From: Linyphia triangularis
Lineage: Eukaryota > Arthropoda > Arachnida > Araneae > Linyphiidae
DNA: 64,000 bases
Direction: 5' to 3'
Assembly: GCA_963978545.1 (NCBI GenBank)
Contig: OZ021721.1
Location: 113,369,280 to 113,433,279, forward strand
In this document: positions 4,644 through 47,585 of the stretch, piece after piece
Position numbering within the stretch: the stretch's first letter is position 1
Layout of the letters: every line of letters starts with the position of its first letter
Translations under genes and position numbers: made by a program
Notes under the pieces: generated by a model
What the model saw: only the letters and a program-made list of their open reading frames with translations
Databases searched by the model: none
What the model was told of the DNA's origin: nothing

Positions 4644-4829
4644 TTGATTGGTTGGTTGTTTTCAGATTATCTGGCGCTGTCAGCAACACGAGGGCTATAA
4701 TGCGCCGAAATATTCGTCATTATACAAGCCAACATACATTTACAAACACCCATGCCTAACACGGGACTCGAACCCGCAACCTCGTGGTCTAGAAGCTAGC
4801 ACACTAACCACTATACCGTTTGGTCGGCC
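4644..4829 (-). mobile_element. tRNA-derived SINE (family 1), copy 1
   Basis: Read on the minus strand, it begins GGCCGACCAAACGG, has an A-box-like TAGTGGTTAGTGTG and a perfect B box GGTTCGAGTCC, and then a non-tRNA body ending CCAACCAACC. The 13-bp target duplication TAAGAATGTTGAG is perfect at 4631-4643 and 4830-4842, showing insertion by target-primed reverse transcription. The A and B boxes would be an internal RNA polymerase III promoter. SINEs encode no protein and depend on a partner LINE, which I do not see in this window. Confidence 0.95.
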
Positions 4830-5036: not shown

Positions 5037-6361
5037 CTTAAAAAATAAACTTCGGACATCTCTTATTGTCCTTCAGTAGAACGCCATTGCACTCATTACC
5101 TATGAACAGGAATTGTCGAACCAAGAAATAGGAATCTAGGCATGGCGAAACTGGGGACGTGGAACTTCGCACAATTTTCAATTACACTATAATACTGACA
5201 TGGATTTGTGTCATTTGCCGCTTTTATATTTTCATAATTCGTTTAGCAAAAAGTAATTAGCCTTAAAAAATAAACTTCGAATATCTCTTATTGTCCTTCA
5301 GTAGAACGCCATTGCACTCACTGCCTATGAACAGGAATTGTCGAACCAAATCTAGGCATGACGAAACTAGGGGTGTGGAACATCGCACAATTTTCAATTA
5401 CACTATAATACTGACATGGATTTGTGTCATTTACCGCTTTTATATTTTCATAATTCGTTTAGCAAAAAGTAATTAGCCTTAAAAAATAAACTTCGAATAT
5501 CTCTTATTGTCCTTCAGTAGAACGCCATTGCACTCACTGCCTATGAACAGGAATTGTCGAACCAAGAGATAGGAATCTAGGCATGACGAAACTAGGGGTG
5601 TGGAACATCGCACAATTTTCAATTACACTATAATACTGACATGGATTTGTGTCATTTACCGCTTTTATATTTTCATAATTCGTTTAGCAAAAAGTAATTA
5701 GCCTTAAAATATAAACTTCGAATATCTCTTATTGTCCTTCAGTAGAACGCCATTGCACTCACTGCCTATGAACAGGAATTGTCGAACCAAGAGATAGGAA
5801 TCTAGGCATGACGAAACTAGGGGTGTGGAACATCGCACAATTTTCAATTACACTATAATACTGACATGGATTTGTGTCATTTACCGCTTTTATATTTTCA
5901 TAATTCGTTTAGCAAAAAGTAATTAGCCTTGAAAAATAAACTTCGAACATCTCTTATTGTCCTTCAGTAGAACGCCATTGCACTCACTGCCTATGAACAG
6001 GAATTGTCGAACCAAGAGATAGGCATGACGAAACTAGGGATGTGGAACATCGCACAATTTTCAATTACACTATAATACTGACATGGATTTGTGTCATTTA
6101 CCGCTTTTATATTTTCATAATTCGTTTAGCAAAAAGTAATTAGCCTTAAAAAATAAACTTCGAACATCTCTTATTGTCCTTCAGTAGAACGCCATTGCAC
6201 TCACTGCCTATGAACAGGAATTGTCGAACCAAGAGATAGGAATCTAGGCATGACGAAACTAGGGGTGTGGAACATCGCACAATTTTCAATTACACTATAA
6301 TACTGACATGGATTTGTGTCATTTTCCGCTTTTATATTTTCATAATTCATTTAGCAAAAAG
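5037..6361. repeat. Satellite array, six copies of a 216-225 bp unit
   Basis: The anchor TAAACTTCG occurs at 5046, 5271, 5487, 5712, 5937 and 6154. Full units are 225 bp; the second and fifth are 8-9 bp shorter because part of the tract around GAGATAGGAATCTAGG is missing. Apart from these indels the copies are nearly identical, except the first, which is the most diverged. The last copy breaks off at GCAAAAAGG near 6361, about 140 bp from the secD fragment. Confidence 0.95.
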
Positions 6362-6500
6362 GCGATATTTGTTGCGATAATTCTTGTACGGGTCTTTAAA
6401 AAAAAAAACTTCACCAAAATGATGATTTTGGCGATATACTTTTCGATAATTCTTATATTATCCCTTCTTATAAGTGAAACTGAGGAGAGAAGAAAAAACA
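6362..6500. other. Short spacer with a 28-bp direct repeat
   Basis: A motif of the form GGCGATAT..CGATAATTCTT occurs twice (about 6361 and 6431), separated by an A-rich tract. It lies between the satellite and the secD fragment. I could not extend the SecD reading frame into it. Confidence 0.45.
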
Positions 6501-6563
6501 ATTGTTGATGATAATCTCTCCCTCTCCATTTGAAATTGATTCGCGTATTGTAGGTACTGTTAA
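6501..6563 (-). pseudogene. secD: Bacterial secD fragment, downstream part
   Basis: This is the continuation of the secD fragment at 7285-7443 on the far side of a MITE. If the MITE and one TTAA are left out, the minus-strand frame runs straight on from DNTVL into TVPTIRESISNGEGEI. That corresponds to the SecD segment normally reading roughly SAPVIREPI..GSGxI, just after the conserved VLDN. The match ends after about 20 codons at an NN pair; the next codons (CFFSP) no longer resemble SecD and a stop follows soon. SecD with SecF forms the membrane complex that assists Sec-dependent protein export in bacteria. Animals have no homologue, so this is transferred DNA and non-functional. The frame continuity is seen; the family is recognised by memory of conserved motifs. 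Confidence 0.8.
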
Positions 6564-7287
6564 GGGGGTATGGTACCGAAATTTCTTCAAAAATCCCAAA
6601 TTATTTTTCTGATTTTAAAAAATAGTTCATACATTCCTGAAGAGAATGATGTTTTTATCTTATTCCTCCTGTGATTAGAACGCCACCAAATTACCTGTGA
6701 TTTAAACATCACTAATGGGCATAACACTTTGAAGCGTCTGCTTAAAGTGCGTTTTTCGAGCACTAGTGTTTTTCACAGATGTTGCATATTCAAATCGATA
6801 TATCTCCAGAACCATTAACAATTGGCTATTCAAATTTTTGGAGCATTTTATTTATATGGTTTTAAATATTTTGTCTTCATAGAATTTTATTTTTTCAATT
6901 CTGTTTTAAAATATAACATTTAGAGTAAAAGATAACATAAAAAAAAAGCAAAAATTTCAATATTTTAACTTTGAGAATTTTTTTAATTTTTTTTAGTTCA
7001 CCTATCAAAATTCTGTGAAGACAAAATTTTCTTTATATAATTATGTATTACAGAAAGCTTTCACTTTGAAAAAAAAAATATTTTTTCTTGACTTATATCA
7101 AAATACGCAAACATCAATTATTACGGATTTTTCTTGGTTTTTAAATTTTTTTTAAATAACAAAACACAATATTTAAAAAAACATTTTCTCAAAGATATTT
7201 AAATAGTAACTCATACATAAAATAAATTTTTGACGTAAAAATGTACATAAATAAAGTTTTTTTATTTTCGGTACCGCACCTCCTTAA
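6560..7287. mobile_element. MITE family M1, copy A, with TTAA target duplication
   Basis: The ends are TTAAGGGGGTATGGTACCGAA at 6560 and the inverted TTTCGGTACCGCACCTCCTTAA at 7287. TTAA flanks both sides and is the duplicated target. The interior is AT-rich with a long imperfect internal inverted repeat (TTTTGTCTTCATAGAATTTT near 6875 and AATTCTGTGAAGACAAAATT near 7010) and no coding frame. TTAA targets are typical of piggyBac and Kolobok DNA transposons; PIF/Harbinger (TWA) is less likely. Copy B is at 39244-39968. The insertion interrupts the secD fragment. Confidence 0.92.
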
Positions 7288-7443
7288 GACTGTGTTATCC
7301 AGAACAATTGCAAAAGGCTTCCCTACATTTTCCTTAGTGATTTTTGCGAATCTTTTATTCTCTTTACTGTCAAATTTAAAATGTACTGTCGGTTTACCTA
7401 AATTGCCGAATCTAACTGATGCGTTAACCAGCGAATCGCGTGT
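7285..7443 (-). pseudogene. secD: Bacterial secD fragment, upstream part (lateral transfer)
   Basis: A 53-codon open stretch on the minus strand contains SLVNASVRFGNLGKPTV and then ITKENVGKPFAIVLDN. The second motif is the hallmark of the SecD periplasmic domain (ITxxNVGKxxAIVLDxxVxSAP). SecD is an inner-membrane partner of the bacterial Sec translocase; full proteins have about 500-600 residues, so only some 73 codons survive here, counting the piece at 6501-6563. A TGA at 7444-7446 closes the frame upstream and similarity starts only just inside it. No membrane segment is retained. The wording of the sequence suggests an alphaproteobacterial, Wolbachia- or Rickettsia-like donor, but I cannot place it exactly. 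The MITE splitting it has a second copy in this window, so contamination is an unlikely explanation. Confidence 0.82.
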
Positions 7444-7446
7444 TCA

Positions 7447-7980
7447 ATGAAAGAAAACTCTGTGTTAAAGGCATTCGTTTTTTAACTTTTTACGCCACTA
7501 AAGCATTTTTACGGGAATTTTGGAGGTGGGGATGTTTAGAACACGCTTAGAGGCATTAATAAAGCGATTTTGAACAAAATCGTTAGGGCCGTTTCTTTGC
7601 AATTACTGAAAAACATGATTTTTTCAATGGCAGCTACCTTATGCGCATGCGCTATTTTGACGAAAACCTTAATGGTAGATCCCTGTGCCTTCACCGACCT
7701 GCACACCAAATTTGAACATCTTAGGTCAATTTGTTCAGGAGTTATGCTGACCACGTACACCCACACAGACATTTTTTCTAGATCACTTTTTTGAAATCAG
7801 GATGTCCCAAAACGTGGAGAAATGCAAAAATATCAACAACAACAAATTTACCGAATACTATATTTTCATTCCAATATGTAAACATATGGATAATTGAAAG
7901 TAAAAAAGATATATATACTTTTTATAAGTACTCAATTTTGAATTTTTATAAATCGAACCCAAGTCTAAATGTATAGAAAA
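7447..7980. repeat. Probable decayed transposon 3' region
   Basis: The tract TTTGAACATCTTAGGTCA, then TTCAGGAGTTATGCTGAC and an ACACCCACACAGAC end, is in the style of 3' untranslated tails of arthropod retroelements. The overlapping frames at 7536-7772 and 7570-7794 are on opposite strands and resemble no protein I know. Classification is inference from style only. Confidence 0.35.
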
Positions 7981-9240
7981 TAAAATCTTAATTTCAAGTT
8001 AAAATATAATCCCATTTATTCCAACTCCAAAACCTTTCAAAACATACACTCAAGACTATTCAAAATATTGCTTAATATTATTAACACTTAAACTATTCAA
8101 ATTATACCCACAATCACCTTGAAAATCAATGTAATTTGAACATAATTATCAAATATTCAATTTCAAAAATAAAAAATTAAATCTTAAGTTTTGAACTTAA
8201 GAATTAAACAGTTACATCGACACGATATATTTTATTATACTTTCGCTAAAGTCTAGATTTTGGTAAATAGTCTAAATTTGGTCTAAATGTATAGGAAAAC
8301 AAAATTATACTTTTAAAGTTAAAATCCAATCCCATATATTTCGACTCCAGAATAATTAAAAAACTGAAGCCATTTTGAAATTCAGAAACGTCCTTGACGT
8401 TTATTTGAAATAAAAATGACAAATTGCTCACTGAGTACAGAAGATCAAATACAATTTCCTTCGCTTTCCTTACATATGAATGAAGGATTGTTTTAATCTT
8501 CAAAGACGTTCTCCTATATTGCTTTATAAAAATTAAATTTTACCAAGACCTCAAGAGAGACTGTTTTAGCCACCTTAAGATATTTGTCTGGAATCTATAC
8601 TAAGTGCATTTTAACTTGAATTGTGTTTAAGATTATAGAAAAAGACACTCGATTATTTGGTGACATTTCACATTGTGTGCTTGGCACTTAGAATGGATTA
8701 TTTAAACTTGATCTGAACTAATTGAACTGTAAGTGTATTAATTTATCAAGAAGTATTTTATTTGTATGAAACTTCAATCCAAAACATTCAGTTTTCTGAA
8801 GTATTGTTGAGTTGAAAAATTTTGCTTTGAAAGGGGTCGCATTAGAACTGTTCTATATAAGAAAGTCACGAAAAATGATAAATATATTTTAAAGTGCTCC
8901 GAAGAAAATTTCTTCAAATGGTTATAGGGGATTTAATCTGAGTTTTACATTAGTTCTTGCTTAAGTTAATCATAATTATTCAAGTGAGATTTTCCTAAGG
9001 TCACTGGTTTACATTTAATGAAGTTGAATTGTTGAAAAAGAAATTAATTATTCACTAAATTCTTTTGTTGAAAAAGCTTATGTACACGACACAAAATGAA
9101 CATGTCCAAGAGAAACTTTAAATTTCCAAAAATATTGCCTAAAGTGTGTTTTAATATGCAGGTTTGATTGCCATTGAAATATTTTTTGAATTCTTTCCCC
9201 TTTGTCTGGTGAACAACTCAAAAAATATAATAAAATCTTT
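7981..9240. other. Unique AT-rich sequence
   Basis: I see nothing beyond AT-rich unique sequence. An 85-codon minus frame at 8246-8503 has no recognisable motif; its composition matches the surrounding noncoding DNA. Confidence 0.55.
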
Positions 9241-9253
9241 CCAGAATTAGACA

Positions 9254-9430
9254 GCCGACCAAACGGTATAGTGGTTAGCGTGCTAGCTTCTAGACCGCGA
9301 GGTTGCGGGTTCGAGTCCCGTGTTAGGCATGGGTGTTTGTAAATGTATGTTGGCTTGTCTAATGACGAATGTTTCGGCGCATTATAGCCCTCGTGTTGCT
9401 GACGGCGCCAGATAATCTGAATACAACCAA
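9254..9430 (+). mobile_element. tRNA-derived SINE (family 1), copy 2
   Basis: It starts GCCGACCAAACGGTATAGTGG. An A-box region lies at TAGTGGTTAGCGTG and a perfect B box GGTTCGAGTCC at 9308-9318; the body continues through GGCGCATTATAGCCC and GGCGCCAGATAATCTG. A perfect 13-bp target duplication CCAGAATTAGACA is at 9241-9253 and 9431-9443. The tRNA-like head does not fold into a convincing acceptor stem, so this is a SINE rather than a tRNA gene. Confidence 0.96.
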
Positions 9431-9443
9431 CCAGAATTAGACA

Positions 9444-10200
9444 AATAAAGTAAGAAATTTGCGACTTTTACGTATTTTAAAACGGAATTTCTACTTTTAG
9501 GCATTACAATAGTGTGTACCTTTAGTAGTAGAATTTACGTAAATGCCTAATCTTACTAATTTAAAATAATTTTTAGAATTATTTCAATTGTTTGTTAATA
9601 AATAACATTATAAAATAATAAAAAACTGTTTTCTTAGTACAAATAAATATAATATTCATTGTACATGTTTTAAACTTAATATGTTAAATCCCTTATAAAA
9701 ACAAATTCGAAAACCTCTTTTATCAAAATACTTTCCACGATTTACCCACTTCATTCAAATGCTTATAATTATTACTCAGTTTTGATAGTATATGAATTAT
9801 TTCGAGAAATTTAAAATTTCTTATCTATTCAATCAGATTCACATTATTGGTATCCCATTATATAAATCCTACATTTTTTTAAAGTACCAGATCCAAAATG
9901 CTGTAAATAATAAAAAAATTAAATTTATTAATTATGTTCTTTGACGTTACTTATTAACGTAAGGGCTCCTAAAGAGCTTTAGAATTGAAATAGAAAGAAA
10001 AGGAATTATATTAGTGATATACACCCCAATGCCCTTCTTGTCTTGGTTTAATCACGTGGTCCTTGTACCCAATCATCGAAACCTTTAGGCCCCGCCTACT
10101 ATTTCATGTCAACTCTTTGTGTGGCATTTATTCGCGAGTATTGAAATGCATCTATATTTAAGTATTTCATGTCTTATATAAAACATGAACCATCTTTTGC
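9444..10200. other. Unique AT-rich sequence
   Basis: This is mostly AT-rich. The stretch 10020-10150 is richer in G and C (GGTTTAATCACGTGG, GGCCCCGCCTAC) and may be a small noncoding element, but no coding frame or RNA gene is apparent. Confidence 0.45.
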
Positions 10201-12260
10201 ACGGCATGATAGCTTTTAAACTTATATCAAATTATACATTTTAAGATTTCGATTATATTAATTCTACAAATTGGTCAACCATCTAGTTTGACTATCCAGT
10301 ACAACGCATAACGAGAGGTTGTGTGAAATTGAAAATGAATTTGCATTATAAGATAAAATTTAATTGAATATGTAAATTAGATAACTCAGAATCTTTTCTT
10401 GGAAGTTACTAAAAATGTATTAATATCAATTCTATTATAGTTTAAATATAAAAGTAAATAAGATGATATAATGTAAGTGTAAGAGCTATAATATCACTTC
10501 AAAAGAAGTTGATATTTAATATAAATCCAAACTTAAAATATAGAGGCGGTTTAATTCTTGCTAATAACGTAAAACGTCGCAAACCCATCGTTATAAAGAG
10601 AGGTTATGTAAAATTGTGAACTAATTCGCACGAACTAAGTTTTTAAATTCAATTGGATTTTGAGATGAGAAACTTTCTTTTCAAGGGCATATTAAAAGTA
10701 TTTATATAATGTCCTTATATTAAAAATATGAAAGTATGTAAGGTGATATCACTTAATTCTAAAAGCTATAATGCCACTTCAAAAGATATGTGATGTGATA
10801 TGTGTGTTCAAAAGATATATGATATATTTGCATTAAAAGATAAAATTTAATTGAATATGTAAATTAGATAACTCAGAATCTTTTCTTGGAAGTTACTAAA
10901 AATGTATTAATATCAATTATATTATAGTTTAAATATAAAAGTAAATAAGATGATATAATGTAAGTGTAAGAGCTATAATATCACTTCAAAAGAAGTTGAT
11001 ATTTAATATAAATCCAAACTTAAAATATAGAGGCGGTTTAATTCTTGCTAATAACGTAAAACGTCGCAAACCCATCGTTATAAAGAGAGGTTATGTAAAA
11101 TTGTGAACTAATTCGCACGAACTAAGTTTTTAAATTCAATTGGATTTTGAGATGATAAACTTTATTTTCAAGGGCATATTAAAAGTATTTATATAATGTC
11201 CTTATATTAAAAATATGAAAGTATGTAAGGTGATATCACTTAATTCTAAAAGCTATAATGCCACTTCAAAAGATATGTGATGTGATATGTGTGTTCAAAA
11301 GATATATGATATATTTGCATTAAAAGATAAAATTTAATTGAATATGTAAATTAGATAACTCAGAATCTTTTCTTGGAAGTTACTAAAAATGTATTAATAT
11401 CAATTCTATTATAGTTTAAATATAGAAGTAAATAAGATTATATAATGTAAGTGTAAGAGCTATAATATCACTTCAAAAGAAGTTGATATTTAATATAAAT
11501 CCAAACTTAAAATATAGAGGCGGTTTAATTCTTGCTAATAACGTAAAACGTCGCAAACCCATCGTTATAAAGAGAGGTTATGTAAAATTGTGAACTAATT
11601 CGCACGAACTAAGTTTTTAAATTCAATTGGATTTTGAGATGAGAAACTTTATTTTCAAGGGCATATTAAAAGTATTTATATAATGTCCTTATATTAAAAA
11701 TATGAAAGTATGTAAGGTGATATCACTTAATTCTAAAAGCTATAATGCCACTTCAAAAGATATGTGATGTGATATGTGTGTTCAAAAGATATATGATATA
11801 TTTGCATTAAAAGATAAAATTTAATTGAATATGTAAATTAGATAACTCAGAATCTTTTCTTGGAAGTTACTAAAAATGTATTAATATCAATTCTATTATA
11901 GTTTAAATATAAAAGTAAATAAGATGATATAATGTAAGTGTAAGAGCTATAATATCACTTCAAAAGAAGTTGATATTTAATATAAATCCAAACTTAAAAT
12001 ATAGAGGTGGTTTAATTCTTGCTAATAACGTAAAACGTCGCAAACACATCGTTATAAAGAGAGGTTATGTAAAATTGTGAACTAATTCGCACGAACTAAG
12101 TTTTTAAATTCAATTGGATTTTGAGATGAGAAACTTTCTTTTCAAGGGCATATTAAAAGTATTTATATAATGTCCATTATATTAAAAATATGAAAATATG
12201 TAAGGTGATATCACTTAATTCTAAAAGCTATAATGCCACTTCAAAAGATATGTGATGTTT
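10200..12260. repeat. 487-bp satellite with internal dimer structure, about 4 copies
   Basis: The anchor TTGCATTA occurs at 10341, 10828, 11315 and 11801, giving a 486-487 bp period. The copies are almost identical. Each unit is itself an old dimer: GCTATAATATCACTTCAAAAG in one half corresponds to GCTATAATGCCACTTCAAAAG in the other, and AGAGAGGTTATGTAAAATTG corresponds to a diverged partner in front of the first copy. A degenerate half unit begins near 10200. The array ends abruptly near 12255 in GATATGTGATG. Confidence 0.93.
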
Positions 12261-21306: not shown

Positions 21307-21631
21307 CTAAGTTCGAAGTTATTCAGTTGCCTCTTGACATATAAAATTAATATCCCATTAAAGTTTATACCTCATGGTTAACAACTGTAATGACCCTTAT
21401 TTACATTCTATGAATCGCCAGCAGAGATTTATGTTTGCATATTATGATCAATTGGACAGGATGGCAAATGAAAAAAATTTGAATTACATTTCTAAATTTA
21501 ACATGTTAAAGATTTATAGGGATATGGGACACTAAATGTATAAAAAAAAATATATTGTTTTTCTGTTTTAAAAAAGAATATTGATCGATCTGAATTGAAA
21601 TAAATCAAAAGTTAAACTCCACCTGAAATAT

Positions 21632-21804
21632 GCCGACCAAACGGTATAGTGGTTAGCGTGCTGGCTTCTAGACCGCGAGGTTGCGGGTTCGAGTCCCGTG
21701 TAGGCATGGGTGTTTGTAAATGTATGTTGGTTTGTTAAATGACGAAATGTTTCGGCGCATTATAGCCCTCGTGTTGCTGACGGCGCCAGATAATCTGAAT
21801 ACAA
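21632..21804 (+). mobile_element. tRNA-derived SINE (family 1), copy 3
   Basis: The head GCCGACCAAACGGTATAGTGG, B box GGTTCGAGTCC and tail GGCGCCAGATAATCTG match copy 2 closely. The 12-bp duplication CCACCTGAAATA lies at 21619-21630 and 21805-21816. As in copy 2 the insertion point lies next to a CCA-rich tail, so the exact 3' end is ambiguous by a few bases. Confidence 0.95.
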
Positions 21805-21816
21805 CCACCTGAAATA

Positions 21817-23747
21817 CACAAGTTTTAACATTAAATAATTAGCACCATGGTACTGTTATCTCAACTATGCCTTTTTTAAAATCCAGTTTTCTTGGTAATA
21901 ATAATTTCCCCATCTTATGAATTTAGAATATATATAATAGGATGCGTCTTATTTTCGAAGGTGTTAATTTTTTACGGAACGCCCTCTCACTTTGTTCCAT
22001 TTGATGAGAAAAAAATTCAATTTTTTTTTTATTCAAATCAAATGATATTTAGAGGTTACTACCAGCTCTGCAAAATCTGACAAATTTAGCATTACGCAAG
22101 CATTGCAATTGATGTTTTTCATGTATTCATTAGAATATTTAACTTTTTGGCCAGTAGTTATTGAATCATTTTATTATATTATGCTTCAAACAGCTATATA
22201 TTGATTTTATTCCAAGAAACTCATATCAATTTAGTAGTAGCGCATATCAATTTTAACTAAAGAACTAAAATTAGAAACGCACTCAAGATGATATTTTTTG
22301 AAAATATTTCGTTTATTGATAAGCTTAATTTTTATATCATTACTTTAAATTTTTTTCCTCTCTTTATTTATCGTCGTCGACCTTGTTTTTGTGCTAAAAA
22401 AAGCTAATACTATGTAAAAGTGCATTAATGTAGCCATTTAACTGTTTCTTAACTGTAAACGCAACCACTTCACTATTTATAATTACTTTCTTCTAATGCA
22501 ACTGCATCTGCTTTTTCTTTGCTTTCTAATGATTTTAATCAGCTTTTGTTTATTGAAAATGTATTTTAATCTTTATCACTATTTGTAAGATTAGTTTAAA
22601 ATATCTACAAATGTTCTAAATCATCAATTTAATTAGAGCAACACTATTGTTTTCATGATAAAATCTACTACAAGAAAACAAACCACGATATGTGTCATAG
22701 GCCAAGTATCATCACTAAATCATAGAAAACTTCCATACAAAAGAAAAACCATGTATATTTTTTCATTTCAAGCAGATTTTTAAGCAAACCACTAGAAATG
22801 CCTGTCATTCAGTAGCTATACTTGTAATGAAGGTGTGGGCTAATGCCTGAATACCAACGAAATTAAAACAATATGTGGTAGCTCAAATAAAATAATTGTT
22901 TTGTGATTGAGCCAACATGAAGAAGTTAAGTAGTTAGTATGTACAGGTACATTAAGGTTCGTACTCTTTTGGGGAAAGGGGGGGGGGAGGAATTCCATGA
23001 CTTTTCAATGATAACAATTTCTTTTGAAAACAAAAAATTCACGATCTCACAATTTTTCTTCATTATTAACATTTCATAGTAAAAAATATACACTATTTAT
23101 GTTTGCAATAAGTTTATTAATAATCTTGTGTAAAAAAAAAAAGCTGACAATGAAGATTTTTCTTTTTCTCACATTCTTATACATTCAAATAAAAAAACTT
23201 GATTTTTTCCATGATAGTGGTAATTTCTATTGCCGGTATCAACCCCTAAATTTTATTTAAATTACCCAAAATTTTTACACATGTGTTTTCTCCCCAAATA
23301 GGATCATTTGAAAGGGTGTCTCATTAAAATTTTTAAAAATAATGTTTAATGGCATTTAAGACGCACTCTAATATATAATTACAAAACCGTTTATAATAAA
23401 TACTTGAAATACTTTACGTTATTAATATATGAGTTTTTTAAATTTAAGAATTTTATTTTTAAATTTGGAGGACATATTATTTGAAGTTTTGGAATTAAAC
23501 TCTTTCAACAAAATATTCTAAAGATTGATAAAAAATTAAAAAAAAAATTTATTTAATAAATCTTTTTGAATTACTTAGTATAAAAAAATTATGAATTGAA
23601 TAATAAGTTTTAGAATTATATGGACTTATATCAAAAATAAAAATAATGAAAATTTTACAAAAATACAAGTTTAAAAAAAAAAGTTGTTTTTGTTGGAAAT
23701 AGTTTATCTAATTAAAATATTCACCGTACATCCATTTAAAAAATTTC
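21817..23747. other. Unique AT-rich sequence
   Basis: No gene is supported. Frames of 62 and 78 codons at 21892-22080 and 23024-23260 show only AT-driven composition. A run of ten G at 22978-22987 stands out in an otherwise G-poor region. Confidence 0.55.
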
Positions 23748-26326
23748 ATTGAGAATTATCCTTTTAAATTTGAAAATTTTATATTTTTTGCCCTATAACC
23801 ACTAAACTATACATAACTAAAAAAAGCGAGTATGTTAACGCACAAATCAGCTGTCAATTTAAATATATTTCATGAAATATCAAGGTTAAACACAAAAACA
23901 GCTTTTATTGAGAATTATCCTTTTAAAATTGAAAATTTTATATTTTTTGCCCTATAACCACTAAACTATACATAACTAAAAAAAGCGAGTATGTTAACGC
24001 ACAAATCAGCTGTCAATTTAAATATAATATTTCATGAAATATCAAGGTTAAACACAAAAACAGCTTTCATTGAGAACTATCCTTTTAAAATTGAAAATTT
24101 ATAATTTTTGCCCTATAACCACTAAACTATATATAACTAAAAAAAAGCGAGTATGTTAACGCACAAATCAGCTGTCAATTTAAATATAATATTTCATGAA
24201 ATATCAAGGTTAAACACAAAAACAGCTTTCATTGAGAATTATCCTTTTAAAATTGAAAATTTATATTTTTTGCCCTATAACCACTAAACTATACATAACT
24301 AAAAAAAGCGAGTATGTTAACGCACAAATCAGCTGTCAATTTAAATATAATATTTTATGAAATATCAAGGTTAAACACAAAAACAGCTTTCATTGAGAAT
24401 TATCCTTTTAAAATTGAAAATTTATATTTTTTGCCCTATAACCACTAAACTATACATAACTAAAAAAAGCGAGTATGTTAACGCACAAATCAGCTGTCAA
24501 TTTAAATATAATATTCCATGAAATATCGAGGTTAAACACAAAAACAGTTTTCATTGAGAATTATCCTATTAAAATTGAAAATTTATATTTTTTTCCCTAT
24601 AACCACTAAACTATACATAACTAAAAAAAGCGAGTATGTTAACGCACAAATCAGCTGTCAATTTAAATATAATATTTTATGAAATATCAAGGTTAAACAC
24701 AAAAACAGCTTTCATTGAGAATTATCCTTTTAAAATTGAAAATTTATATTTTTTGCCCTATAACCACTAAACTATACATAACTAAAAAAAGCGAGTATGT
24801 TAACGCACAAATCAGCTGTCAATTTAAATATAATATTTCATGAAATATGAAGGTTAAACACACAAAAACAGCTTTCATTGAGAATTATCCTTTTAAAATT
24901 GAAAATTTATATTTTTTGCCCTATGACCACTAAACTATACATAACTAAAAAAAGTGAGTATGTTAACGCACAAATCAACTGTCAATTTAAATATAATATT
25001 TCATGAAATATCAACGTTAAACACAAAAACAGCTTTCATTGAGAATTATCCTTTTAAAATTGAAAATTTATATTTTTTGCCCTATAACCACTAAACTATA
25101 CATAACTAAAAAAAAGCGAGTATGTTAACGCACAAATCAGCTGTCAATTTAAATATAATATTTCATGAAATATCAAGGTTAAACACAAAAACAGCTTTCA
25201 TTGTGAATTATCCTATTAAAATTGAAAATTTATATTTTTTTCCCTATAACCACTAAACTATACATAACTAAAAAAAGCGAGTATGTTAACGCACAAATCA
25301 GCTGTCAATTTAAATATAATATTTTATGAAATATCAAGGTTAAACACAAAAACAGCTTTCATTGAGAATTATCCTTTTAAAATTGAAAATTTATATTTTT
25401 TGCCCTATAACCACTAAACTATACATAACTAAAAAAAGCGAGTATGTTAACGCACAAATCAGCTGTCAATTTAAATATAATATTTCATGAAATATGAAGG
25501 TTAAACACACAAAAACAGCTTTCATTGAGAATTATCCTTTTAAAATTGAAAATTTATATTTTTTGCCCTATGACCACTAAACTATACATAACTAAAAAAA
25601 GCGAGTATGTTAACGCACAAATCAACTGTCAATTTAAATATAATATTTCATGAAATATCAACGTTAAACACAAAAACAGCTTTCATTGAGAATTATCCTT
25701 TTAAAATTGAAAATTTATATTTTTTGCCCTATAACCACTAAACTATACATAACTAAAAAAAGCGAGTATGTTAACGCACAAATCAGCTGTCAATTTAAAT
25801 ATAATATTTCATGAAATATCAAGGTTAAACACAAAAACAGCTTTCATTGAGAATTATCCTTATAAAATTGAAAATTTATAATTTTTGCCCTATGACCACT
25901 AAACTATACATAACTAAAAAAAGCGAGTATGTTAACGCACAAATCAGCTGTCAATTTAAATATAATATTTCATGAAATATCAAGGTTAAACACAAAAACA
26001 GCTTTCATTGAGAATTATCCTTATAAAATTGAAAATTTATAATTTTTGCCCTATGACCACTAAACTATACATAACTAAAAAAAGCGAGTATGTTAACGCA
26101 CAAATCAGCTGTCAATTTAAATATAATATTTCATGAAATATCAAGGTTAAACACAAAAACAGCTTTCATTGAGAATTATCCTTATAAAATTGAAAATTTA
26201 TAATTTTTGCCCTATGACCACTAAACTATACATAACTAAAAAAAGCGAGTATGTTAACGCACAAATCAGCTGTCAATTTAAATATAATATTTCATGAAAT
26301 ATCAAGGTTAAACACAAAAACAGCTT
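23748..26326. repeat. 162-bp satellite, 16 copies, with tetrameric higher-order duplication
   Basis: Units start at CATTGAGAATTATCC near 23748, 23906, 24068, 24230, 24391 and so on, with a period of 158-162 bp. Each unit includes the perfect 16-bp palindrome ATATTTCATGAAATAT in most copies. A block of four units starting near 24550 is repeated at 25198 (648 bp later) with the same private variants: ATCCTATTAAAATTG, an extra AC in AAACACACAAAAAC, AATCAACTG, and TCAACGTTAAACAC. The last three units form a separate near-identical group carrying CCTTATAAAATTG. The array ends at ACAGCTTT. Confidence 0.96.
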
Positions 26327-27257
26327 TATGCTGAAGCACTTTGTTAAAGAGTCACAAGGATTGGTGGACTCTATTGTCACGAAATTTTAATTAAAGCAAT
26401 CAGGCAGATAAGGGCAAACAGCTAAAGGCACAGTCCTTTTTTTCTGTAAAATTAACAGTATGCTCTTTTAATATAACGTTTTTTCTTCCTTGAAGACGTA
26501 GTCATAACGTCATTAATGCCTTTAACGAAGTATTAAGTACATAAACATGCTGATGCCTGATTATAAATACAATCTCTCGTAATATTACTGGGATATTTTT
26601 GAGAAATAACGTCTGTGAAAAAGAGTCGAAACACTAATATGTTCCCTTTAAGCACACACACTTTTATCAACGATCGAACTGCATATTTAAAGGCTTCATT
26701 AAATAGAGTTTTTAATTATTGGTGTAAACACTTTTTAGTGTATATTTGAGTAAAACATAAGGAGTGAGTTAAATGAGTTATTCTTAGTACATAAGAATTT
26801 AGATTTTGTCCCGAATATTTTTTGATAAATAAGTATCAAATCTATGAAAAAGAACTTTGTTTTGACTAAAAATGATAATAAGACATTAATTAAACTAAAT
26901 AAAAAGAATGTATATAATTAAACGAAAAAGTAAATTATTTATATTAAAATAAATATGCATTTCAATTTGAGGTCTATAGTTAAGTTTGCTTAAAAAAGAA
27001 TGTCGAATACATTAAATTTGTTTTCATCTTTCAGTTAATGTTATTATTTGAGTCTCATTCAGTATTGGGGATTTTTCAAATCTTTCTTCTCCTTAATGTC
27101 TTTAAAAATTTAATCAATATTTCATTTTAATGAATAATTTCTTTATTATATCTCAGTAGATGAACTTCCCGGCGTTGCCGTTGCTCAAACAGCTGTGGCA
27201 CGGCGTTCCTCGATATAACCAGGTTCAAACTGGTATAATTGATTGCAAGTCATGAAC
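26327..27257. other. Unique AT-rich sequence
   Basis: Only the short 27165-27240 stretch is richer in G and C (CCGGCGTTGCCGTTGC, ACCAGGTTCAAACTGGT with a 5-bp stem); it may be a remnant of a retroposon but is too short to name. Confidence 0.45.
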
Positions 27258-29040: not shown

Positions 29041-29090
29041 ATTTTTAATTATTATATATTTTAATATTATAAAAATTGATGAATTAGTAC

Positions 29091-30650
29091 TCTAGTGATA
29101 AGAAAGTAATACTAAAATTTATTTACATTTTCTTAGAATTGTTCACCAGTGATAATGAATTATTGTCAGAAGTTATTAAAATATGTTACAATATATACAA
29201 TAGTACAATGACTTTTTGACCATGTGTATTTAATTTTTGGAAAAATATGTCTTTCTTGTCTATGGATTTTTTTAAGGTACAAATCTGAATTCTAGAATGA
29301 GAATGTAAATAAATTTATGAATCAAATAGTAAACACTTTCGAATACTGTACTCTAGTGATAAGAAAGTAATACTAAAATTTATTTACATTTTCTTAGAAT
29401 TGTTCACCAGTGATAATGGATTATTGTCAGAAGTTATTAAAATATGTTACGATATATTCAATAATACAATGACTTTTTGACCATGTGTATTTAATTTTTG
29501 GAAAAATATGTTTTTCTTGTCTACGGATTTTTGTAAGGTACAAATCTGAATTCTAGAATGAGAATGTAAATAAATTTATGAATCAAATGGTAAACACTTT
29601 CGAATACTGTACTCTAGTGATAAGAAAGTAATACTAAAATTTATTTACATTTTCTTAGAATTGTTCACCAGTGATAATGAATTATTGTCAGAAGTTATTA
29701 AAATATGTTACAATATATACAATAATACAATGACTTTTTGACCATGTGTATTTAATTTTTGGAAAAATATGTCTTTCTTGTCTATGGATTTTTTTAAGGT
29801 ACAAATCTGAATTCTAGAATGAGAATGTAAATAAATTTATGAATCAAATAGTAAACACTTTCGAATACTGTACTCTAGTGATAAGAAAGTAATACTAAAA
29901 TTTATTTACATTTTCTTAGAATTGTTCACCAGTGATAATGGATTATTGTCAGAAGTTATTAAAATATGTTACGATATATTCAATAATACAATGACTTTTT
30001 GACCATGTGTATTTAATTTTTGGAAAAATATGTTTTTCTTGTCTACGGATTTTTGTAAGGTACAAATCTGAATTCTAGAATGAGAATGTAAATAAATTTA
30101 TGAATCAAATGGTAAACACTTTCGAATACTGTACTCTAGTGATAAGAAAGTAATACTAAAATTTATTTACATTTTCTTAGAATTGTTCACCAGTGATAAT
30201 GGATTATTGTCAGAAGTTATTAAAATATGTTACGATATATTCAATAATACAATGACTTTTTGACCATGTGTATTTAATTTTTGGAAAAATATGTTTTTCT
30301 TGTCTACGGATTTTTGTAAGGTACAAATCTGAATTCTAGAATGAGAATGTAAATAAATTTATGAATCAAATGGTAAACACTTTCGAATACTGTACTCTAG
30401 TGATAAGAAAGTAATACTAAAATTTATTTACATTTTCTTAGAATTGTTCACCAGTGATAATGGATTATTGCCAGAAGTTATTAAAATATGTTACGATATA
30501 CACAATAATACAATGACTTTTTGACTATGTGTATTTAATTTTTGGAAAAATATGTTTTTCTTGTCTATGGATTTTTGTAAGGTACAAATCTGAATTCTAG
30601 AATGAGAATGTAAATAAATTTATGAATCAAATGGTAAACACTTTCGAATA
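29091..30650. repeat. 261-bp satellite, six copies
   Basis: The anchor TCTAGTGATAAGAAAG occurs at 29091, 29352, 29613, 29874, 30135 and 30396, exactly 261 bp apart. Copies alternate slightly between two variants: units at 29091 and 29613 share GTCTATGG and ATACAATA, units at 29352 and 29874 share GTCTACGG and TTCAATAA, suggesting a past dimeric step. Each unit has the dyad TTCTAGAA. Confidence 0.96.
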
Positions 30651-35520: not shown

Positions 35521-36845
35521 TATAGCGTGTCATTGACTGGAGCCGTGAGTACGATAATGTTAACTTCTCCCTGATTTTAAATCTTGGAGTATGTAACAAA
35601 AGCTTTTAGATTGAAGTCAATTAAGCAGATGCTTCATATTTCCAATATTTCATTAAATAGATGAGTTCAAATGTAGACTTAAAGTTCAACTTTCAGATAG
35701 CTATAATAAAATAAGAACTTGTCAGAATGACCTGAAATTTGACCTGAATAAATGCAAAGAAAGGAGGAATGGTATGACATAACAAAAAAATAGTTCTAAA
35801 TGTTTTTGTTTTTTTGTTTTTTTCGTATGTCATATCACTTTCTTCTATTAATTCTTCCAAATTCAGGTCAAATTTCCTGTCATTCTGAACAGTGGGCTTA
35901 TTTTACATCTATTGGAAAAAAGAACTTTAATTATAATCATATAGCGTGTCATTGACTGGAGCCGTGAGTACGATAATGTTAACTTCTCCCTGATTTTAAA
36001 TCTTGGAGTATGTAACAAAAGCTTTTAGATTGAAGTCAGTTAAGCAGGTGCTTCATATTTCTAATATTTCATTAAATAGATGAGTTCAAATGTAGACTGT
36101 GGCAACAAAAACATTACAGGGTGAATATAATTAAAGTTCAACTTTCAGATAGCTATAATAAAATAAAAACTTGTCAGAATGACCTGAAATTTGACCTGAA
36201 TATATGCAAAGAAAGGAGGAATGGTATGACATAACAAAAAAATAGTTCTAAATGTTTTTGTTTTTTTTGTTTTTTTCGTATGTCATATCACTTTCTTCTA
36301 TTAATTCTTCCAAATTCAGGTCAAATTTCCTGTCATTCTGAACAGTGGGCTTATTTTACATCTATTGGAAAAAAGAACTTTAATTATAATCATATAGCGT
36401 GTCATTGACTGGAGCCGTGAGTACGATAATGTTAACTTCTCCCTGATTTTAAATCTTGGAGTATGTAACAAAAGCTTTTAGATTGAAGTCAGTTAAGCAG
36501 ATGCTTCATATTTCTAATATTTCATTAAATAGATGAGTTCAAATGTAGACTGTGGCAACAAAAACATTACAGGGTGAATATAATTAAAGTTCAACTTTCA
36601 GATAGCTATAATAAAATAAAAACTTGTCAGAATGACCTGAAATTTGACCTGAATATATGCAAAGAAAGGAGGAATGGTATGACATAACAAAAAAAATAGT
36701 TCTAAATGTTTTTTTTTTTTTTTTCCCTTATGTCATACCACTTTCTTCTATTAATTCTTCCAAATTCAGGTCAAATTTCCTGTCATTCTGAACAGTGGGT
36801 TTATTTTACATCTATTAGAAAAATGAACTTTAATTATAATCACTC
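35521..36845. repeat. Three tandem copies of a 419-453 bp unit, each carrying a foldback MITE
   Basis: Units start at TATAGCGTGTCATTGACTGG at 35521, 35940 (offset by a base) and 36393. Copy 1 is about 32 bp shorter because TGTGGCAACAAAAACATTAC and the following GGGTGAATAT are absent before the MITE. The second half of each unit is a hairpin of about 240-270 bp whose arms contain CAGAATGACCTGAAATTTGA and its inverse TCAAATTTCCTGTCATTCTG, with ends ATTAAAGTTC and GAACTTTAAT. The MITE was evidently amplified with its flank by segmental tandem duplication. Confidence 0.92.
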
Positions 36846-37637: not shown

Positions 37638-37817
37638 GGTTGGTTGTTTTCAGATTATCTGGCGCCGTCAGCAACACGAGGGCTATAATGCGCATAAACA
37701 TTCGTCATTAGACAAGCCAACATACATTTACAAAAACCCATGCCTAACACGGGACTCGAACCTGCAACCTCGTGGTCTAGAAGCTAGCATGCTAACCACT
37801 ATACCGTTTGGTCGGCC
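37638..37817 (-). mobile_element. tRNA-derived SINE (family 1), copy 4
   Basis: The minus strand begins GGCCGACCAAACGG; the B box here reads GGTTCGAGTCC on the minus strand and the tail ends with CCAACCAACC. No convincing target duplication is visible (TCACATCCCT left, CCGTTAAAGT right), so one flank may have been lost. The 77-codon plus frame over it is a shadow of the SINE, as is the similar frame at 4648. Confidence 0.92.
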
Positions 37818-38259: not shown

Positions 38260-39058
38260 TTGGCATCTTTTCTCATCACCCAGTGACTTTTTTATTTATG
38301 TGCGAGTTGAATGTAGACTTAATAACTTCTGACTGAATAGCTTCTTACTGACTTTTTTATTTATATAAAGCATATTTATCTAACATTTATTCTTTAGAAT
38401 GTATGAATATAATTTAGAATATGCGAGTTGAATGTAGACTTAATAACTTCTGACTGAATAACTTCTTACTGACTTTTTTATTTATATAAAGCATATTTAT
38501 CTAACATTTATTCTTTAGAATGTATGAATATAATTTAGAATATGCGAGTTGAATGTAGACTTAATAACTTCTGACTGAATAACTTCTTACTGACTTTTTT
38601 ATTTATATAAAGCATATTTATCTAACATTTATTCTTTAGAATGTATGAATATAATTTAGAATATGCGAGTTGAATGTAGACTTAATAACTTCTGACTGAA
38701 TAACTTCTTACTGACTTTTTTATTTATATAAAGCATATTTATCTAACATTTATTCTTTAGAATGTATGAATATAATTTAGAATATGCTAGTTGAATGTAG
38801 ACTTAATAACTTCTGACTGAATAACTTCTTACTGACTTTTTTATTTATATAAAGCATATTTATCTAACATTTATTCTTTAGAATGTATGAATATAATTTA
38901 GAATATGCGAGTTGAATGTAGACGTAATAACTTCTGACTGAATAACTTCTTACTGACTTTTTTATTTATATAAAGCATATTTATCTAACATTTATTCTTT
39001 AGAATGTATGAATATAATTTAGAATATGCGAGTTGAATGTAGACGTAATAACTTCTGA
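38260..39058. repeat. 121-bp satellite, about 6.5 copies
   Basis: GAGTTGAATGTAGAC recurs at 38304, 38425, 38546, 38667, 38788 (as TAGTTG), 38909 and 39030, always 121 bp apart. The unit contains an internal near-repeat TAACTTCTGACTGAATAACTTC. Copies are nearly identical; the last two share the variant TAGACGTAATAAC. Confidence 0.96.
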
Positions 39059-39243: not shown

Positions 39244-39968
39244 TTAAGGGGGTGCAGTACCGAAATTTCTTCAAAAATACAAAAAAAAAAATTCTGATTT
39301 TAAAAAATAGTTCATAAATTCCTGAAGAGAATGATGTTTTTATCTTATTCCTCCGGTGATTAGAACGCCACAAAATTACCTGTGATTTAAACATCACTTA
39401 TGGGTGTAACACCTTGAAGCGTCTGCTTAAAATGCGTTTTTCGAGCACTAGTGTTTTTCACAGATGTTGCATATTCAAATCAATATATCTCCAGAACCAT
39501 CAACAATTGGCTATTCAAATTTTTGTAGCATTTAATTTATATAGTTTTAAATATTTTGTCTTCACAGAATTTTATTTTTTTAATTCTGTTTTAAAATATA
39601 ACATTTAGCGTAAAAGATAACATAAAAAAAAGCAAAAATTTCAATATTTTAACTTTGAGAATTGTTTTAATTTTTTTTTAATTCACCTATCAAAATTCTG
39701 TGAAGACAAAATTTTCTTTATATAATTATGTATTACAGAAAGCTTTCACTTTGAAAAAAAAAAATTTTTTTCTTGACTTATATCAAAATACGCAAACATC
39801 AATTATTACGGATTTTTCTTGGTTTTTAATTTTTTTTAATAAATAAACACAATATTTAAAAAAAACATTATCTCAAAGATATATAAATAGTATCTCATAC
39901 TTAAGATAAATTTTTGACGTAAAAATGTACATAAAGTTTTTTTTATTTTCGGTACAGGACCCCCTTAA
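39244..39968. mobile_element. MITE family M1, copy B, with TTAA target duplication
   Basis: Ends TTAAGGGGGTGCAGTACCGA and the inverted TCGGTACAGGACCCCCTTAA, with TTAA at 39244-39247 and 39965-39968. The body aligns with copy A (6560-7287) throughout, for example TTCCTGAAGAGAATGATG and GCGTTTTTCGAGCACTAGTG. About 725 bp and noncoding. Confidence 0.93.
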
Positions 39969-46559: not shown

Positions 46560-47585
46560 AAATTTATCATTTCTAAAAAGAGATCTCCAATATTTTAGAT
46601 TTTTTTTAAGTGTCGATTTTACCTTATAATAAATTGAAAAACTAACCTAGAATAGAAGGCGTAACTGCCGTTTATGTCTTCTATTGATCATTTCTTAACC
46701 TAGATCGCAATGCAATTCTTGATTTTTATATTCATTATCTATTTTTCTCATGGTAAATTGAAAAATACTAGAATATTAATCCCCCGTTTATCTCTTCTAT
46801 TTATAAATTCTAAACCGAGATCTCAATCAAATACTTTATTTTGAGATACTAAATGTCCACTTTAGCTCATTGTAAATTTAAAAAAAAAATTCTAGAGTAT
46901 TAATTTGCCGTTTTTTTCCTGCTATTTATCATTTCCAAACCGAGATCTCAATCAAATACTTTATTTTGAGATACTAAATGTCTATTTTAGCTCATTGTAA
47001 ATTTAAAAAAAAAATTCTAGAGTATTAATTTGCCATTTTTTTCTGCTATTTATCATTTCCAAACCGAGATCTCAATCAAATACTTTATTTTGAGATACTA
47101 AATGTCTATTTTAGCTCATTGTAAATTTTAAGAAAAAATTCTAGAGTATTAATTTGCCATTTTTTTCTGCTATTTATCATTTCCAAACCGAGATCTCAAT
47201 CAAATACTTTATTTTGAGATACTAAATGTCTACTTTAGCTCATTGTAAATTTAAAAAAAAATTCTAGAATATTAATTTGCCGTTTTTTTCCTGCTATTTA
47301 TCATTTCCAAACCGAGATCTCAATCAAATACTTTATTTTGAGATACTAAATGTCTATTTTAGCTCATTGTAAATTTTAAAAAAAAATTCTAGAGTATTAA
47401 TTTGCCATTTTTTTCTGCTATTTATCATTTCCAAACCGAGATCTCAATCAAATACTTTATTTTGAGATACTAAATGTCTATTTTAGCTCATTGTAAATTT
47501 AAAAAAAAAATTCTAGAGTATTAATTTGCCGTTTTTTTTCTGCTATTTATCATTTCCAAACCGAGATCTCAATCAAATACTTCAA
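46560..47585. repeat. 124-bp satellite with one decaying edge
   Basis: ACCGAGATCTC occurs at 46814, 46939, 47063, 47187, 47311, 47435 and 47560, period 124-125. Two further copies to the left (from about 46575) are strongly diverged (AAAGAGATCTCC; CTAGATCGCAATG). The array thus grades from old on the left to nearly identical on the right, then stops abruptly after AATCAAATACTT. Confidence 0.95.

Follow-up and report, generated by a model that had tools for sequence, protein, structure and literature searches.

A 64-kb stretch of DNA, hereafter the window, lies at 113,369,280-113,433,279 of contig C14 in a host assembly of 1.35 Gb and 369 contigs. Near one end of the window, two pieces of a bacterial secD gene are separated by a transposable element and enclosed by the two halves of a dispersed host repeat (Table 1). 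The secD pieces, at 7284-7439 and 6512-6563 of the minus strand, are the two halves of one fragment and have only a TTAA in common. As the initial annotation had described, a minus-strand frame through KITKENVGKPFAIVLDNTVL resumes past the 728-bp element with LTVPTIRESISNGEGEI. The larger piece, in a frame of 84 residues, matches the Pfam family SecDF_P1_head (PF22599; E=4e-13, 49.7 bits against a gathering cut-off of 27) and, in phmmer searches, the solved SecDF chains 3aqo and 3aqp (E=4e-5 and 2.5e-4, respectively). It also matches the NCBIfam SecD/SecDF models by E-value, with scores far under their full-length cut-offs, as is to be expected of a fragment. The smaller piece alone gave no match in Pfam and NCBIfam searches and was recognized only through the SecD of Wolbachia, in which it corresponds to the adjoining part of the protein (tblastn E=0.002). 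These matches, together with the host repeat on both sides, uphold the proposal that bacterial secD sequence resides in a eukaryotic chromosome.

Table 1. Features at the secD locus and the second copy of the inserted element (window positions)
Feature	Positions	Strand	Basis
Six-copy tandem array, unit of ~225 bp, of which ~105 bp are the left terminus of the dispersed host repeat	5037..6361		tandem-array and repeat comparison
Dispersed host repeat copy, left half (6511 is the last base before Wolbachia DNA)	6256..6511	+	genome copies ending at 6511
3' part of the secD fragment, with the TTAA target at 6560-6563	6512..6563	-	blastn to Wolbachia G038
MITE of 728 bp with TTAA at each end and 22-nt TIR, within the secD fragment	6560..7287		TIR and genome copies
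5' part of the secD fragment, with the TTAA duplicate at 7284-7287	7284..7440	-	blastn to G038; Pfam PF22599
Dispersed host repeat copy, right half	7441..7906	+	genome copies starting at 7441
Second copy of the MITE	39244..39968		93% identical; 33/722 substitutions from consensus

The extent of the bacterial DNA was read from comparison of the whole window with one Wolbachia genome, G038 (blastn, E<=1e-4; 81 stretches representing 1.61 of 1.63 Mb, a comparison that Wolbachia genes absent from G038 would escape). Only the two secD pieces matched, the larger at 93.6% over 156 bp (E=3e-61) and the smaller at 90% over 52 bp (E=3e-11), and the two matches share four donor bases, exactly TTAA, which occupy 8301-8304 of L159, a stretch of 20 kb that surrounds secD in Wolbachia. 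The Wolbachia DNA extends from 6512 to 7439 or 7440, the latter base being unlike both the eight nearest Wolbachia sequences and the host repeat consensus, and it measures 204-205 bp, or about 68 codons, once the transposable element is removed. The joined translation of about 73 codons that had been put forward is SecD, as claimed, but is Wolbachia-derived only over these 68: apart from single junction bases, the residues past GEGEI at one end, and the T at the other, are host DNA, and the initial R codon lies across the right junction. A 22-base pattern taken from the fragment found nothing when scanned against viral contigs, Rfam gave no match at gathering scores within the window, and a Pfam search of 10 ORFs selected from the 42 listed (at least 78 aa; simple-repeat ORFs passed over) gave none at E<=0.01. 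A repeat of ~128 bp also recurs at 4701-4828, 9254-9381, 21629-21759 and 37689-37817 of the window with 92-97% identity, two of its copies lying within reading frames that contain RDSNPQPRGLEAS and RDSNLQPRGLEAS.

The element that splits the fragment is a MITE of 728 bp when both TTAA copies are counted and 720 bp when neither is, and its 22-nt terminal inverted repeats (TIRs) are 86% complementary. Four TIR matches were found at three or fewer mismatches, where the chance expectation from 100 shuffles is 0.00, and the second copy reported at 39244 was recovered. Genome-wide, 40 of 1606 candidate places were scored, the window's included, and the best of the others is 96% identical; TTAA stands at the start and the end of the 19 best other copies among these 40 places, as it does in both copies of the window. 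The copy within secD differs from the consensus by 18/728 substitutions. Its left TIR starts with GGGGGT and its right one with GGAGGT, and in the 19 fetched copies the tip is GG on the left in all and GG on the right in 18, with GA in the remaining one (L113). MITEs of the piggyBac type also use a TTAA target and have TIRs starting with CCY, a start that the window's copy lacks. The element agrees with the Kolobok type in two features: TTAA target and purine-purine TIR tip are the features given for Kolobok-type MITEs in the account of PMC6004289, in which the T2-MITE of Xenopus has both, as does the window's element, while differing from it in a TIR of AGGRR. By these two sequence features, the MITE fits a Kolobok-type element.

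On either side of the Wolbachia DNA, the host repeat provides an unusually direct view of the site before insertion. When the left flank was used as a query (6340-6559; the best 40 of 1285 first-look candidates scored, among them this locus), the match ended exactly at 6511 in 32 of the 39 others, and when the right flank was used (7288-7800; the best 40 of 9510, again with this locus included), 32 of the 39 others started exactly at 7441. Twenty-two other repeat copies were fetched, half of them through the right flank (L083-L093) and half through the left (L095-L105). In every one the opposite half of the repeat adjoins, so that these copies are paralogous empty sites, and none of the 22 matches SecD or Wolbachia G038 at E<=1e-6. 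They are paralogues from the same genome, as opposed to the orthologous site in a sister species. When the spacing of the halves was restricted to between -20 and 40 nt, the 22 loci yielded 26 junction rows, 11 with exactly 4 nt between 6511 and 7441 and 15 with 5-33 nt, because in these the local alignments end early or the copy differs at that point.

With 19 of the 22 copies aligned (all but L100, L103 and L104), the repeat takes the form ...GTTGATGA-GGTA-TGCTCAAGG..., and the window at the same site reads GATGA, then Wolbachia DNA, then TGTTCAATG. Approximately 4 bp (GGTA), a loss measured against the repeat consensus, have thus been exchanged for approximately 204 bp. There is no target-site duplication and no evident microhomology at the insertion, and, with the donor flanks taken from one of the nearest Wolbachia relatives (L130), donor and host have no bases in common at either junction. 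These features fit repair by end joining, a pathway that we infer from the form of the junctions. The satellite that had been described as flanking the fragment exists as a tandem array, but its unit consists partly of left-end sequence from the dispersed repeat itself; the other ~120 bp of the unit matched none of the own-genome loci that were fetched from elsewhere, and the array is probably a local tandem expansion over the element boundary. Tandem arrays are found at six further places in the window (10339-12258, 23744-26327, 29087-30650, 35679-36842, 38301-39058 and 46761-47582), with differing long units of 121-487 bp and matches of 95-99%.

The same junctions bear on how the fragment came to be so short. 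The initial annotation had envisaged a bacterial insertion that decayed to about 73 codons, and a larger Wolbachia insertion that shrank by deletion to the present 204 bp has precedents: some nuclear Wolbachia transfers (nuwts) are described as large and fragmented afterwards in accounts of PMC12693587 and PMC3998919, and longer Wolbachia-like stretches are present in this genome. Yet with host repeat at both ends and only ~4 bp missing relative to the paralogues, deletions would have had to halt at the original junction on each side, which makes shrinkage a very improbable history. Because host repeat sequence abuts both of its ends, the fragment most likely arrived at about its present size, and the claim of decay to 73 codons falls.

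Endosymbiont DNA is frequent in sequenced samples according to the account of PMC9894559, so that a Wolbachia contig joined to host sequence, through contamination or a chimeric assembly, must be considered as the source of the locus. The SecD piece, however, matches the assembly only once at E<=0.001, within contig C14 at 113 Mb, and the foreign DNA is only ~204 bp long, lies between halves of one host repeat and is broken by a MITE that was also scored at 39 places elsewhere. Contamination is accordingly very unlikely, with odds of about one in a hundred in our estimation; a very local assembly error at the locus may be conceived. The earlier conclusion against contamination stands on the contig position and the host repeat on both sides, the second MITE copy that had been offered as its argument being weak evidence.

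The identity of the donor was approached at the levels of protein and DNA. In a scan of GTDB species genomes with a 50-residue piece, in which at least 429 relatives were confirmed, the top three of the best 80 loci were Wolbachia (83, 81 and 73% identity). Among the best 120 of 7999 proteins scored, P0012 and P0015 (Wolbachia of Bemisia tabaci) agree with the larger piece at the most residues, 48/51. Matches were found in 38 of 41 genomes of the genus Wolbachia (none in G022, G025 and G031), and 205 columns of DNA were compared over 35 loci, 30 of them from the genus search together with L001-L005. The window is identical to two Wolbachia loci, L130 and L147, at 189/205 bases and to the next, L144, at 185/205; outside Wolbachia, Mesenet (L004) and Neoehrlichia (L005) reach 133/205 and 124/205. 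In the tree, the window joins L147 and L130 with support of 100/99, within a wider clade of nine rows supported at 91/91. The first protein comparison had suggested the Wolbachia of Bemisia tabaci or P0012 as donor, and the DNA shifted it to the L130/L147 clade; judged from protein alone, P0015 and P0012 (48/51) and L130 (94%) are equally close to the larger piece.

By base identity and phylogeny, then, the donor is a Wolbachia, which narrows the Rickettsiales-type endosymbiont of the original proposal. The SecD proteins of L143 and L148, from the same clade, are nearest to P0013, a group A Wolbachia of Colletes cunicularius according to its source, and those of L130 and L147 are nearest to P0016 and then to P0013. 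The donor was probably supergroup A-like, the supergroup being drawn from 205 bp of DNA. The locus combines Wolbachia-derived sequence with host DNA on both sides at 113 Mb of C14, the combination by which nuwts are recognized.

The nesting of the three kinds of DNA gives the order of their arrival. The MITE lies between the secD halves, and TTAA is present at its target in 29 of 35 relatives of the donor gene, including all eight of the putative group A clade; therefore the bacterial DNA most likely already contained the site when the MITE entered it. A repeat copy was followed by Wolbachia DNA and this by the MITE, in agreement with the earlier claim that the element arrived after the bacterial sequence. 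The host repeat differs from its consensus at 16/251 and 44/470 positions in its two parts, and the secD fragment differs from its nearest relatives at 16/205, with 11 private changes of which one is base 7440. These divergences and that of the MITE agree with the nesting, but the confidence intervals of private secD divergence (2.7-9.4%) and MITE divergence (1.5-3.9%) overlap in part, and alone the divergences are no proof of order; the secD value, moreover, mixes changes in the unsampled donor lineage with changes after insertion.

Whether the fragment has been put to use as a working host gene or exon can be judged from the same changes. Its 68 codons contain no stop, as such a role would lead one to expect, but the chance of remaining free of stops after 10 neutral point changes is 0.67, so that the open frame is uninformative. 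The fragment is, furthermore, a piece of one SecD subdomain split by the 728-bp element, and the frame of the larger piece enters the MITE and stops at 7189. The codons with private changes are synonymous in 5 of 10 cases and residue-altering in the other 5; the residue-altering share is expected to be 76% without constraint and is 17.5% among 171 Wolbachia pairs. The observed half differs from the neutral expectation with a two-sided p=0.07 and from the bacterial pattern with a one-sided p=0.02, as expected if the changes occurred partly in the bacterium and partly afterwards. Recruitment as a host gene seems extremely improbable, and the fragment is, from its sequence, very probably functionless.

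Taken together, these observations are best explained by a small nuwt that was joined into a repeat, was later hit by a host MITE and is now a probably functionless fossil, a reading to which we assign a probability of about 0.95. A ~204-bp piece of secD from a Wolbachia, probably of supergroup A, was inserted at a break in one dispersed repeat copy, most likely through non-homologous end joining and in the germ line of an ancestor. The break cost the repeat its GGTA, and the joining added at most one filler base. A host MITE that targets TTAA later entered the TTAA carried by the Wolbachia gene, duplicating it.

Other Wolbachia-like DNA is present in the genome. Comparison of the 20 kb of Wolbachia DNA in L159 with the host assembly gave 27 matches at 68-97% identity, distributed over C4, C5, C10, C12, C14 and C15, and two of these are the present locus. 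Of the remainder, many coincide with phage-portal, SppA-like, IS110 and group II intron genes, and several fall in 9221-10990 of the Wolbachia stretch, a region with no listed ORF of at least 150 aa. Clusters are found at C5:92341814-92349814, C15:19380165-19385607 and 19483596-19502295, C10:70121975-70159958 and C4:97075341-97097634; judged by similarity, they are Wolbachia-like, largely mobile DNA (phage, IS110, group II intron) in host contigs. Wolbachia has probably been present in the host lineage more than once or over a long period. At 98.87 Mb of C14 (98871674-98871908), two pieces of 123 bp and 117 bp that correspond to a single part of one transporter-like gene of Wolbachia (84% and 77% identical) stand adjacent in inverted order, and this is perhaps another tiny insertion. 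That short Wolbachia fragments have repeatedly patched germ-line DNA breaks, leaving tiny nuwts in high-copy repeats with base-exact paralogous empty sites, is a tentative idea that we hold to be possible and somewhat doubtful.

Nuwts are described as common (PMC3798261; PMC9894559), and those of arthropods and filarial nematodes, like the present one, are Wolbachia DNA in host chromosomes that is mostly non-functional and often consists of small inserts; in Onchocerca, supergroup C nuwts average 434 bp according to the account of PMC12693587. Host retrotransposons within a nuwt are reported from Drosophila ananassae (PMC4299567). Both kinds of event, the transfer itself and the entry of a host transposon into it, are thus already in print, and as a single locus the present case changes no view of the field: it is an ordinary event, clear and well preserved. 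What may distinguish it from other nuwts is that the pre-insertion site is legible at the level of single bases from the repeat paralogues, and because of this the size of the insert and its junctions are known. A tiny bacterial ORF in an animal chromosome can be explained as a small insertion, with no need for a decayed gene. Where an insertion falls inside a dispersed repeat, the other copies of that repeat serve as the empty site, and the junctions of a nuwt can be read without a sister species.
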